From positions 434,001 through 498,000 of the forward strand of contig NW_027184078.1 in assembly GCF_041296385.1 (NCBI RefSeq): a DNA stretch of 64,000 bases, given 5' to 3'. The notes under the pieces are model-generated. The model did no database searches. It was not told the DNA's origin and was given only the letters and a program-made list of their open reading frames with translations. Origin of the DNA: Aphelocoma coerulescens (lineage: Eukaryota > Chordata > Aves > Passeriformes > Corvidae). This document shows positions 3,336 to 6,775 of this stretch, piece by piece; position 1 is the stretch's first letter, and each line of letters begins with the position of its first letter. Made by a program: the position numbers and the translations under genes.

Positions 3336-4539
3336 TGTTATAAGTGTTTTGGTCTTTAGTAACAGTTAAATAAGTGTCATAGCTTAGCAAGCTGAGTCTC
3401 GGAAGTGAGGTTCTCCTTACAGCTTCCTCTATGACCTGACAGGACCTATCAGATGGCCAGTTTGAATATGGACAATTCTTTGAGCCACTTAAAGTTGTGA
3501 CTGCCTCTGTGATACACACTTAAGAATAGACAAATTCCCCCCCCCAGGCTCTCTCTCATTTCCGGTGCTGGGAGAGGTGGCTGCGGGGCCCATGCGGGGG
3601 CCAGTGGGCCCGGCCCCTGCTCGGGCCAGGCCGGGCTGGGCCACGGCTCCAGGATGACCCCCCCCAGGGCTGTGGGACCCCACCCCCCGGGACCCTACCC
3701 CCCCTACCCCCCCCCACTGCGGCCAAGATTTCAGCTTCGTGACCAACAGCGATAAGACACATTCCAGCTGCAAGGCCGAGGTGAGATTAACCCATTTATT
3801 GCTGTGAAGAGCTGAAAACCTGAGGGAAGAAAAAGAGTAGATGCTTAAAGCTGAAAGTCTGTTGTGAAGCTATGATATATCAGAGTATCCCATTGTAATT
3901 TCATGAAGATATGGGGGGTGGAGTGTTCAACTCATAAGCAAAAGCACCTGCGCTGAGATATGCAGATGCTGACACAGCTGTAATTTCATGAGAAGTTTGG
4001 ACAGGGACAGATGGACCAGATGAGGACTTTTGCTCCAAATGGGAAAGGAGAAAACCTCAGTTCCTAGAGATGCTCCCAGAGATAGTCCTAACGATGAAGA
4101 TGAGGAAGACCCTTTGCTCCCAGGGAAGGAGAAGGGCCTCTGTTTTTTTGTTTCTGAATGGCTCAACCTTAAAATTATACCCCAAAAATCTTCAAGAGTG
4201 GACCCTTGAAAGCAGTTGTGGGAAAAGCTGCAAGTCGGGGGAAAGGACTCACATCACGAGCAGAGAGACCTCTTCCTAAATGGACTGAACAATATTTGGA
4301 AGTGGGCGGCTGTCTCGTTGTGATACTGTTTTCATAGCACAAGCAAGAAGAGACTTCTCTTTCTAAATGGACTGAACAAGGTTATTATGGAAGTGGTAAA
4401 CAGACTGAACATCTTAAGGGTTGTCTTTACATTGTCAGTGGGAGAAGGGAGGAAGGTGGGAGGAGGAGAAGAGTTCTGAAGGTGTGGTATAATATTTTTT
4501 CCCTCTTTTAGGTCTGTTAATAAACTTTATATTCTTTCA

Positions 4540-4822
4540 TGTCGGGGTCCCTCCCCCGCCATGTAGCCCTGGGAGCCCTGAGGGGAGGCACGGGGTTTCC
4601 CTGCCCCTGGTCAGCCTCGTTCCCCACTGGTTGGTTTGTGTTTCCTGCGCGGGCAAAGGACCCTCGCGTCCCGTGACTGTAGCGGTTCCTCGGCAGAGCC
4701 CAGCCATGCGGCTGGAGAAATAAACATCTCTGAAACATCTATCAAGAATCCGTCTATATATATATTTCTTTTCCACGGGACTCCTGGTTTGATATAGGCG
4801 TTACAGTATCCCCACTGTAACA
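4540..4822 (+). repeat. 5' LTR of the cold-shock retrotransposon
   Basis: 283 bp with TG...CA ends. It contains an AATAAA signal in the context GGAGAAATAAACATC, followed by a TATATATATATTT run. It pairs with 6466-6748. Confidence 0.92.
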
Positions 4823-4877
4823 TAATGGTAGAGAATTGTGAGCAGAACGATCCCTGATCCCTAAGCGACTGATTTGT

Positions 4878-4883
4878 GTGAGT
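4878..4883 (+). promoter_or_regulatory. Candidate leader splice donor
   Basis: GTGAGT in the context TTTGTGTGAGTAAA lies about 55 bp after the 5' LTR, where retroviruses place a major splice donor. Its use would let the downstream cold-shock frame, which has no usable ATG, be expressed from a spliced mRNA. This is inference only. Confidence 0.3.
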
Positions 4884-4943
4884 AAACCCTAGAAACCTTG
4901 GATTCCTCTTCTTGGTTTTGTTTTGCTATTCCATATCTAAACT

Positions 4944-5381
4944 ATGGAGGAACCGTGGGAAGACTCTTGGCTCTCAGAGCCGCATATGGACATTTATCTT
5001 AAACTTAAAATGATTCTTGAACATCTCTCTGTAATGTTTAGCTTGATCCAAGCTCAGAAAGAACTGAAACACTTCCTGGCATGGTTGTTTAAGAACTTTT
5101 TCTATGTTTCTTGGGATTTAATTCTTACCAAGGGCTTTTGGAAGACTGTTTGGACACAGTTAATATTTGAGTCAAAATATATGCCGATGGAAGAATATTT
5201 TAGTGAATATTATTTAATAACCGAGACTGTTGAGCAATGTCAGCTGTGTCCTGGCGAAGGGAAGCCTGCCTCAGGGACCGTGCGGCCTCGGCCACGTGCA
5301 CCGAGCGCTCTGCGAGCAGCAGCGAGACAATTCCCGCGCGTGGGCGGAGCCACGCGAGCCGCAGTGTCGGTGGCAGAGTGA
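4944..5381 (+). CDS. Possible Gag matrix-derived ORF
   Basis: This 145-codon frame starts with ATG at the first sizeable ORF after the leader, where gag would begin. About the first 100 residues are helix-forming and leucine/lysine rich, including LKHFLAWLFKNFF and the later LILTKGFWKTVW. That is loosely the pattern of avian class II ERV matrix domains. After residue 100 the composition turns Pro/Arg/Ala rich as the frame enters the GC-rich block, so the tail may not be real coding sequence. No capsid or zinc knuckle follows. It could also be a chance ORF. Confidence 0.4.
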   Translation: MEEPWEDSWLSEPHMDIYLKLKMILEHLSVMFSLIQAQKELKHFLAWLFKNFFYVSWDLILTKGFWKTVWTQLIFESKYMPMEEYFSEYYLITETVEQCQLCPGEGKPASGTVRPRPRAPSALRAAARQFPRVGGATRAAVSVAE

Positions 5382-5563
5382 GGCGCAGTGGGAGCGGCGG
5401 GACCTGGCAGTGCCCGCCCGGCCCCGCGCAGCGCGTGGTGGAGCGAGCCCCGTGAGAGCCTGAACGAGAGGGGCGGCTGGCAGCGGTGGAGCGGAGCTGT
5501 GCCCAGCCGAAACACGCGCTGGAGCAGAGTGCAGGGGGGTCATCGCTCAGGGACCCGGCCGAG

Positions 5564-5788
5564 ATGCAGCGCCTGGCAGTGGCAACGCAGCTGCGACTAG
5601 AGGAGGTGACGCACGGTGAACGGAGCGGCGCGGCCCGGCCCGGCCCGCGCGGCCCCGAACGCGACCCTGGGAAAAGCGCGCCGAAACCAGCAGTCCCCAC
5701 AGTTCCAACACGGGAGGGACCGAAAGGGAGAGCAAAGACACAGCGAGACAGAAAACAGCAGCCACTCGGAAAAAGGAAAAGACCATAG
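5564..5788 (+). CDS. Short basic ORF overlapping the cold-shock frame
   Basis: A frame beginning ATGCAGCGCCTGGC at 5564 runs 74 codons to a TAG at 5786-5788, ending in a lysine/arginine-rich tail. It lies +1 relative to the cold-shock frame and overlaps its first part. It holds the nearest upstream ATG. It could be an independent upstream ORF, or the start of a protein joined to the cold-shock frame by a -1 frameshift. The A-rich stretch near 5770-5780 is not a canonical slippery heptamer. No domain was recognised. Confidence 0.3.
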   Translation: MQRLAVATQLRLEEVTHGERSGAARPGPRGPERDPGKSAPKPAVPTVPTREGPKGRAKTQRDRKQQPLGKRKRP

Positions 5789-6246
5789 TAGCTAAGATCT
5801 TAGGGATAGTGAAAGGGTATAATGTTAAACAAAATTATGGTTTTATAACAAGATGTGATAACCAGCAAGACATATTCGTGCATAGAACTGCTATTAAAAA
5901 GAATAACCCTGAAAAATGCATCCCAAGCTTGGGAGATGGAGAGGTGGTGGAATTCAAAATCATACAAGGTAGAAAAGGGTTACAAGCATCGCAGGTCACT
6001 GGGCCTGATGGTGTTCCTGTGAAAGGCAGTATATATGCAAGAAATCGTAGTCATGTTAGACAATATCTCCATTGTAAACCCCCCCTACAGTCTCCCTTTC
6101 CTAATCCCACCTTTCCCTTTTATCCTATGTCCTATTATCCCCAGTGTATTCCCAATCCGTTTTTTCATCCATGGTTTTCCTCACAAAACCATGCCTTTGC
6201 CAATTGTTTCCCCAAAAATCCCTTTCCAATGCCGAGTGGGGGATGA
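5620..6246 (+). CDS. Y-box (YBX-type) cold-shock domain protein in an LTR element
   Basis: The frame is open for 209 codons after a TGA at 5617. The N-terminal part is Arg/Pro/Ser/Thr rich. From about 5779 it aligns with the cold-shock domain of vertebrate Y-box proteins: KTIVAKILG leads into the first strand, QNYGFI corresponds to RNP1 and DIFVH to RNP2. Then come TAIKKNNP, VGDGE-like LGDGEVVEF, and VTGPDGVPVKGS closing the domain. The GPDGVPV form resembles YBX3 more than YBX1, as I recall those families. The conserved Trp of the VKWFNV strand is replaced (VKGYNV). After the domain, the basic/aromatic C-terminal arrays of YBX proteins are absent and a 60-residue Pro/Phe/Tyr-rich tail runs to the stop at 6244-6246. 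No ATG precedes the domain in frame; the first ATG codons lie in the tail. Expected role: RNA or single-stranded DNA binding, possibly standing in for a nucleocapsid. That role is inference. Confidence 0.85.
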   Translation, partial: TERRGPARPARPRTRPWEKRAETSSPHSSNTGGTERESKDTARQKTAATRKKEKTIVAKILGIVKGYNVKQNYGFITRCDNQQDIFVHRTAIKKNNPEKCIPSLGDGEVVEFKIIQGRKGLQASQVTGPDGVPVKGSIYARNRSHVRQYLHCKPPLQSPFPNPTFPFYPMSYYPQCIPNPFFHPWFSSQNHAFANCFPKNPFPMPSGG

Positions 6247-6452
6247 AAAAGGGGGAGGGAAGAAATTAAACCCTCTCCTGCCTCAGTTTCCCCACAAAGC
6301 ATGCTCAGAGAGTTCTGTCTCCCTTCTGTCAGCCCTAAGATGTTCCACAGAATCTGTTTGGACATTTAAAGACTCAGGAGGGTGGCTTGTTTTGTTTTGA
6401 AACTGTTCTTGTTATGTTAATCCAGTTGTCTTCATTCTCCTTTTATTAAAAT

Positions 6453-6465
6453 AAAACGGGGGAAA
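6453..6465 (+). other. Polypurine tract
   Basis: AAACGGGGGAAA sits immediately before the TGTCGGGG start of the 3' LTR, the position needed for plus-strand priming. Confidence 0.8.
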
Positions 6466-6748
6466 TGTCGGGGTCCCTCCCCCGCCATGTAGCCCTGGGA
6501 GCCCTGAGGGGAGGCACGGGGTTTCCCTGCCCCTGGTCAGCCTTGTTCCCTATTGGTTGGTTTGTGCTTCCTGCGTGGGCAAAGGACCCTCGGGTCCCGT
6601 GACTCTAGCGGTTCCACAGCAGAGCCCGGCCATGCGGCTGGAGAAATAAACATCTCTGAAACATCTATCAAGAATCCGTCTATATATATATTTCTTTTCC
6701 ACGGGACTCCTGGTTTGATATAGGCATTACAGTATCCCCACTGTAACA
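6466..6748 (+). repeat. 3' LTR of the cold-shock retrotransposon
   Basis: 283 bp, the same length as the 5' LTR, with 11 differences counted by eye and no indels. It is followed by the CTTTCA target duplication. Confidence 0.92.
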
Positions 6749-6775
6749 CTTTCAAGTTTGGTGCCTGCTTTGCAT

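Follow-up and report, generated by a model that had tools for sequence, protein, structure and literature searches.

A stretch of 64,000 nucleotides from the Florida scrub-jay relative of the crows, Aphelocoma coerulescens (contig NW_027184078.1, positions 434,001 to 498,000; the window, G000:C658:434001-498000 in our searches), contains a long terminal repeat (LTR) retrotransposon of 2209 bp whose gene includes a Y-box-type cold-shock domain (CSD). A first-pass annotation had described paired 283-bp LTRs, a perfect 6-bp target duplication, a polypurine tract and no pol, and the LTRs and the duplication are confirmed. The two LTRs are 96.1% identical and have TG...CA ends, CTTTCA lies on both sides of the element, and the purine-rich tract ACGGGGGAAA directly abuts the start of the 3' LTR. 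The leader between the 5' LTR and the first open reading frame (ORF1) opens with a TGGTRGAGA-like stretch, a candidate primer-binding site, that is conserved among loci chosen by LTR similarity. No pol domain (reverse transcriptase, integrase or protease) was detected in the four frames scanned; outside the LTRs and leader, the element consists of ORF1, a linker, the CSD gene and a 3' untranslated region (UTR).

The main open frame had been read as a YBX-type CSD. The domain assignment stands: the CSD frame (5785-6246) matches Pfam CSD and, among PDB chains, YBX2 and YBX1 (E ~1e-31). The extent of the gene does not: the frame is longer and fused, with the CSD in its C-terminal part, and is broken in the window copy. 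There, ORF1 and the CSD lie in different frames, the CSD frame is preceded by a stop with no Met codon between it and the domain, and a conserved Trp of the RNA-binding face (W65) is replaced by Gly. Given the frame break, the stop and the loss of Trp, we regard the window copy as a damaged element within a family that otherwise codes for a protein.

Table 1 Features of the Y-box-carrying LTR element in the window.
Feature	Position	Strand	Evidence
Target-site duplication CTTTCA, 5' side	4534..4539		Flank comparison; with the 3' duplication bounds the 4534-6754 span
5' LTR, 283 bp, AATAAA at 4719	4540..4822	+	LTR alignment; first part of element 4540-6748
Untranslated leader	4823..4943	+	88-100% identical in 28/30 CSD-ranked loci (those holding the leader); primer P_R_F_1 matches 4841-4860, 19/20
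ORF1, N-terminal part of fused protein (MEEPWEDSW...)	4944..5381	+	ATG in 28/28 copies with ORF1; dN/dS 0.238
GC-rich linker, basic low-complexity segment, indel-variable, stop at 5617-5619 in window copy	5250..5784	+	Copy comparison
Y-box-type cold-shock domain core, codons 1-88	5785..6048	+	PF00313, E 4e-19; YBX1/YBX2 PDB chains; residues
Pro/Phe/Tyr-rich C-terminal tail and stop codon	6049..6246	+	Tail motif in both subfamilies; primer P_L_R_2 matches 6166-6185, 18/20
3' UTR, ending in purine-rich tract ACGGGGGAAA	6247..6465	+	Copy comparison
3' LTR, 283 bp, 96.1% identical to 5' LTR	6466..6748	+	LTR alignment
Target-site duplication CTTTCA, 3' side	6749..6754		Flank comparison

We searched the genome (1,330,612,911 bp in 660 contigs) with several parts of the element. 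First-look candidates, which are not copy counts, numbered 1,130 for CSD DNA, 3,225 for the LTR, 1,197 for leader plus ORF1 and 4,531 for YBX1 protein; only the best 40, 40, 40 and 138 of these were scored. Copies were mostly picked by similarity to the window or another query, and 30 loci ranked by CSD similarity were cut out for detailed comparison. Each of the 40 CSD matches that were scored has an identity of 97-100%. Both LTRs are present at 26 of the 30 CSD-ranked loci (27 have two LTR matches), with a perfect 6-bp duplication in 25 of the 26. These 26 loci have a median span of 2206.5 bp, LTRs of 271-296 bp and LTR-LTR p of 0.007-0.066 (median 0.036). Within each of two pairs, L001/L002 and L014/L015, the duplication is the same and both loci stem from a single insertion; L002 (G000:C658:401061-404519) lies about 35 kb from the window element in the opposite orientation, is nearly identical to it and has the same CTTTCA, a local segmental duplication that carried the insertion with it. 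When loci were ranked by LTR similarity instead, a CSD adjoined 25 of 30. The 30 loci comprised 18 of a first subfamily (13 elements, five of which were matched through both LTRs, with the window and its near-identical copies among them), seven loci (six elements) of a second subfamily, and five solo LTRs, all five with a 6-bp duplication. The element is a member of a high-copy LTR family, not a lone copy.

The first-pass annotation had named a single processed YBX pseudogene, inserted by chance between two LTRs, as the finding that would speak against an element built on a captured Y-box gene. The intronless CSD is compatible with such an accident. In this genome, it is excluded by the many colinear elements with 6-bp duplications of their own: CSD, LTRs, leader, ORF1 and 3' UTR travel together in the loci examined. 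Corvus moneduloides has related proteins as well, which reach 95% identity with the CSD frame and cover 100% of the query. We therefore give the chance-insertion explanation practically no weight. Ten pattern matches in viral contigs included no relative. In the literature searched, which left out most subscription papers, no cold-shock or Y-box gene was described in an LTR element, and the available text of PMC11009239, on passerine ERVK solo-LTRs, holds nothing on an element carrying a Y-box.

Across copies, the gene is a single frame made of ORF1, the GC-rich linker, the CSD and a tail rich in proline and aromatic residues. ORF1 is present in 28 of the 30 first-subfamily copies, and in 13 of the 30 the frame stays open all the way from the start codon of ORF1 through the CSD (432-445 codons). 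Among the best-scored matches, a bird YBX1 query returned 136 element CSDs (139 minus three pieces of host YBX1 on contig C22). No stop interrupts the match in 124 of these; 94 combine this with at least 430 open codons, one of them, on C76, through an artefact, and 59 have exactly 467. The C76 case, an apparent 2120-codon frame, was rejected as it crosses a run of N. Among copies chosen by LTR similarity, the CSD frame is kept in six of nine distinct first-subfamily copies (leaving out the near-identical L050 and L051 and the window's own) and in all seven second-subfamily loci, which represent six elements. Both subfamilies share the tail motif PFYP...YPQ-IPNPFF-PW.

The element CSD is ~60% identical to YBX1 over ~56% of the query. 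In a tree of 24 rows, whose root is arbitrary, the CSDs of the element cluster together and separately from the YBX1, YBX2 and YBX3 types, with a support of 94/95 that falls slightly short of the level taken as firm; the tree does not tell which YBX paralogue gave rise to the CSD. Host YBX1 on C22 matches in separate pieces over ~6.9 kb, in contrast to the unbroken CSD of the element; this accords with capture of a spliced RNA. Three ENA proteins (P0019-P0021), two of which were placed in the tree, have two tandem Y-box-like cold-shock domains and belong to a separate, strongly diverged group.

In YB-1, according to the available text of PMC7226217, Trp65, Phe74, Phe85 and His87 stack on RNA bases. 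Among the 30 first-subfamily copies, 29, 30, 30 and 30 keep the corresponding residues, as do all seven second-subfamily rows (six elements). Lys64, Tyr72, Thr89 and Lys118 are kept in every copy of both subfamilies, and Asn67, Asp83 and Asp105 in 29, 29 and 28 of the 30 first-subfamily copies and in 7/7 second-subfamily rows.

We then asked how the gene has changed among copies, using pairwise Nei-Gojobori ratios of nonsynonymous to synonymous divergence (dN/dS) on copies mostly picked by similarity to a query. For the CSD frame, dN/dS was 0.325 over 435 pairs of 30 first-subfamily copies (core 0.41, tail 0.26) and 0.408 over 15 pairs of six second-subfamily copies (core 0.32, tail 0.69). Between subfamilies it was 0.225 on 80 core codons (dN 0.217, dS 0.962). 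The ORF1 value in Table 1 comes from 102 codons and 325 pairs of 26 copies, two of the 28 having been dropped for length. Control frames in the same DNA gave 1.33 and 0.51 for the CSD and 0.53 and 1.32 for ORF1. Across copies, the ratios show signs of purifying selection, and the gene seems to have been maintained by it.

The second subfamily differs from the first mainly within the gene. Its CSD is 69-76% identical to the window's at the DNA level, and in all six re-fetched elements the two LTRs are 92-94% and the 3' UTRs 92-95% identical to the window's. A coding region so much more diverged than the LTRs and UTRs suggests recombination between element lineages. The Corvus moneduloides protein P0017 appears by eye to be a mosaic of both subfamily types. 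At L068 3262-3917 (G000:C76, ~303.5-304.1 kb) lies a possible recombinant, a CSD element whose one LTR shares 85% identity with the window LTR and whose tail, by eye, mixes the motifs of both subfamilies. In a further class, the frame has 467 open codons and the LTRs share ~86% identity with those of the window copy. Four of its copies were fetched. Three have both LTRs, with LTR pairs that differ by 0-1 bases and a 6-bp duplication that is perfect in two and 5/6 in one. Such LTR pairs show that the family has been active very recently. Across the four copies, there are 2-15 base differences (0.1-1.1%) in the 1401-nt frame and 1.1-2.6% in the 3' LTRs. For the window copy, the 3.9% LTR difference would correspond to ~1.2 million years at 0.0158 per site per million years, the rate quoted in the available text of PMC7341801, and to more at a slower rate.

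The same source (Weissensteiner et al. 2020) provides a possible link to crow speciation. As far as its available text goes, it reports a 2.25-kb LTR retrotransposon 20 kb upstream of NDP, classed as ERVK and named corCorLTRK1b, with an LTR of 296 bp; the insertion is homozygous in all genotyped hooded crows and is associated with lower NDP expression. The two primers of that study that lie inside the insertion match the window element, P_L_R_2 within the tail of the CSD gene and P_R_F_1 on the minus strand in the leader, where 0.01 matches would be expected by chance in the window for each. Across the 30 copies, P_L_R_2 has 1-2 mismatches and P_R_F_1 0-3 in the 28 that hold the leader. By hand arithmetic, the two products should sum to 1207 bp (element parts of 583 and 321, scrub-jay flank of 290, duplication of 6 and an empty-allele difference of 7), or 1233 bp with 296-bp LTRs, compared with the published 659 + 564 = 1223. 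The NDP site itself is empty in this genome, where the flanking primers, each with one mismatch, enclose 190 bp; the empty allele of crows measures 197 bp. The lengths also agree, 2.25 kb against 2.21 kb, and the crow LTR falls at the upper end of our range. Two differences should be noted: the paper places the primers in LTR regions, whereas here they lie just inside the LTRs, and its available text describes no coding gene in the crow insertion. In the literature searched, PMC7341801 is the sole occurrence of the name corCorLTRK1b.

Together, the primer matches and product lengths suggest that the NDP insertion, compared here through primers, length and LTR size, is a copy of this family that includes the CSD gene at least in its final part. 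Assignment of the family to ERVK is provisional, since it follows the name given to the crow elements in the literature. If the link holds, a well-known speciation-linked insertion in hooded crows comes from an element family that carries a gene for a protein. Beyond the first-pass annotation, the analysis brought out a longer fused protein, a broken copy in the window, at least two subfamilies and, probably, a crow NDP insertion within the family.

How might such an element work? The reading we favour, and think somewhat probable, is that of a high-copy, recently active, non-autonomous corvid LTR family that captured a spliced Y-box mRNA and encodes a composite protein acting on element RNA. 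An ancestor would have taken up the mRNA to give a gene of ORF1, basic linker, Y-box CSD and aromatic/proline tail. The ORF1-CSD protein would be made in the germ line, bind element RNA and act in cis, either in nucleocapsid-like packaging and chaperoning or in storage within germ-cell messenger ribonucleoprotein particles. The protein seems to be kept by selection and ends in an RNA-binding domain whose face is largely intact; action in cis on element RNA would be the simplest role. As the element has no pol, it would need borrowed reverse transcriptase and integrase, presumably supplied in trans by a pol-bearing endogenous retrovirus (ERV) of the genome. ERVs with pol and long frames are abundant: 150 were scored of 7,792 first-look candidates.

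More specifically, the captured domain may replace the nucleocapsid, coating its own RNA and bringing it into helper-ERV particles or germ-cell ribonucleoproteins; we put this forward tentatively. A conceivable binding site is a pair of CATC sequences just past the AATAAA poly(A) signal, both present in 33 of 36 LTRs (one per locus), as CAUC is a motif preferred by YB-1 (available text of PMC7825780 and PMC7226217). If the domain does act in this way, the NDP copy, which distinguishes hooded from carrion crows, would owe its place to a selfish Y-box protein.

A number of observations weigh against the favoured reading. Within the RNA-binding face, the YB-1 contact Asn70 is Gln in 30/30 first-subfamily copies (Asn in 5/7 second-subfamily rows), and in all copies the contact Arg69 is Lys and residue 121, Glu in YBX1, is Gln. 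CAUC occurs 9 times in the element against 7.2 expected, which is not above chance; enrichment of the motif was accordingly rejected, and the CATC pair is a lead only. A search for a pol-bearing partner that shares the LTR gave none: the 3' pieces of three such ERVs (L074-L076) have nothing in common with the element, though these pieces may stop before the LTR. An ORF1/integrase pair on C15 was considered as a helper and rejected, the ORF1 match being an ordinary CSD element near another ERV. ORF1 itself could be a Gag remnant. It had no match in Pfam or PDB at the curated cut-off, Gag and matrix included, its sole sequence match is one ENA fragment, and a low-confidence, all-helical model (predicted local distance difference test score, pLDDT, 50) had no fold match. 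Finally, single dN/dS values are noisy, given the range of the control frames and a second-subfamily tail value from only six copies, and choosing copies by similarity to an open-frame query leans towards intact ones. Comparing variants in at least three copies (10 nonsynonymous, 13 synonymous) with private ones (53 and 29; 28 copies for the CSD and 24 for ORF1, duplicates L001 and L015 removed, variants in exactly two copies uncounted) gave a difference in the right direction that was not significant (P 0.09).

The last result bears on whether the CSD is merely the cargo of a successful non-coding LTR element, its frame irrelevant to mobility. The loss of the full frame in 17 of 30 copies and of W65 from the window copy would also fit a passenger. 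Two subfamilies separated by a core dS of ~0.96 have nevertheless both kept the frame and the RNA-stacking residues, and in the 467-codon class the frame has diverged less than the 3' LTRs, neither of which agrees with an irrelevant frame. We consider this explanation improbable.

A second alternative keeps the protein functional and gives it a different target: as an accessory gene, it would spread the element by acting on the host, through translation repression, mRNA storage or escape from silencing in oocytes, rather than by packaging or chaperoning. YB proteins occur at high levels in germ cells, where they act as translational repressors (available text of PMC7226217). Copies are, moreover, over-represented on contigs C34-C38 (~41.5 Mb), which by their lengths fit the W chromosome and W scaffolds in the available text of PMC11631490. 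This set holds 8/40 of the best-scoring CSD matches, 26/40 for the LTR and 19/40 for leader plus ORF1, where ~1.2/40 would be expected by length, and 38 of the 136 element CSDs from the YBX1 query, where ~3% would be expected. The counts rest on best-scoring matches ranked by similarity to the window or query, not on a random sample. According to PMC11631490, as far as available, the W is ~90% interspersed repeats and LTR elements in general are enriched there in this bird, so that no special function is needed to explain the excess. The protein also lacks the Arg-rich C-terminal domain of YBX proteins, its tail being rich in proline and aromatic residues. On this evidence, an accessory role acting on the host seems rather unlikely, although less so than a passenger.

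The preferred reading, a composite protein acting on element RNA, can be set beside known systems. YBX proteins carry a C-terminal domain of alternating Arg-rich and acidic stretches. The element protein shares their RNA-stacking residues and differs in lacking that domain, in having an extra N-terminal ORF1, in grouping apart, and in being encoded by a mobile, multi-copy gene. Most known cases of host-gene capture by LTR elements are single oncogenic isolates. Among avian transforming retroviruses, the defective ones with gag-oncogene fusions similarly have no pol, a single frame with captured host coding sequence and a dependence on helpers; the corvid capture, in contrast, is inherited, exists in very many copies and subfamilies, and has signs of purifying selection, and its ORF1 showed no gag homology. 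Maize Bs1 is also an LTR element of low coding content with host gene pieces in frame, in a plant and with other cargo. In the corvid family, a captured RNA-binding domain seems to have become the central gene of elements that are inherited and highly successful, and the young copies and subfamily divergence are sufficient to test its role.

Other retroviral sequences were seen along the way. Pol-bearing ERVs form tandem arrays with a unit of ~6.86 kb and pol frames of mostly 874, 819 or 1164 codons at C37:3198980-3426305, at C38:2974306-3080100 and on C331, C349 and C522; two of these five contigs fit W scaffolds. The window itself contains ERV remains: an integrase core (36943-37464, minus strand), a reverse transcriptase plus thumb (41552-42751, minus), a Gag p24 C-terminal domain with zinc knuckle (44627-45106, minus), a weak Gag p24 below the cut-off (47230-48237, plus) and a weak start of a reverse transcriptase just below it (50783-51496, minus). 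A frame at 33591-34139 on the plus strand resembles an immunoglobulin V-set exon (E 1.2e-16), by eye of the butyrophilin/Ig-receptor type.

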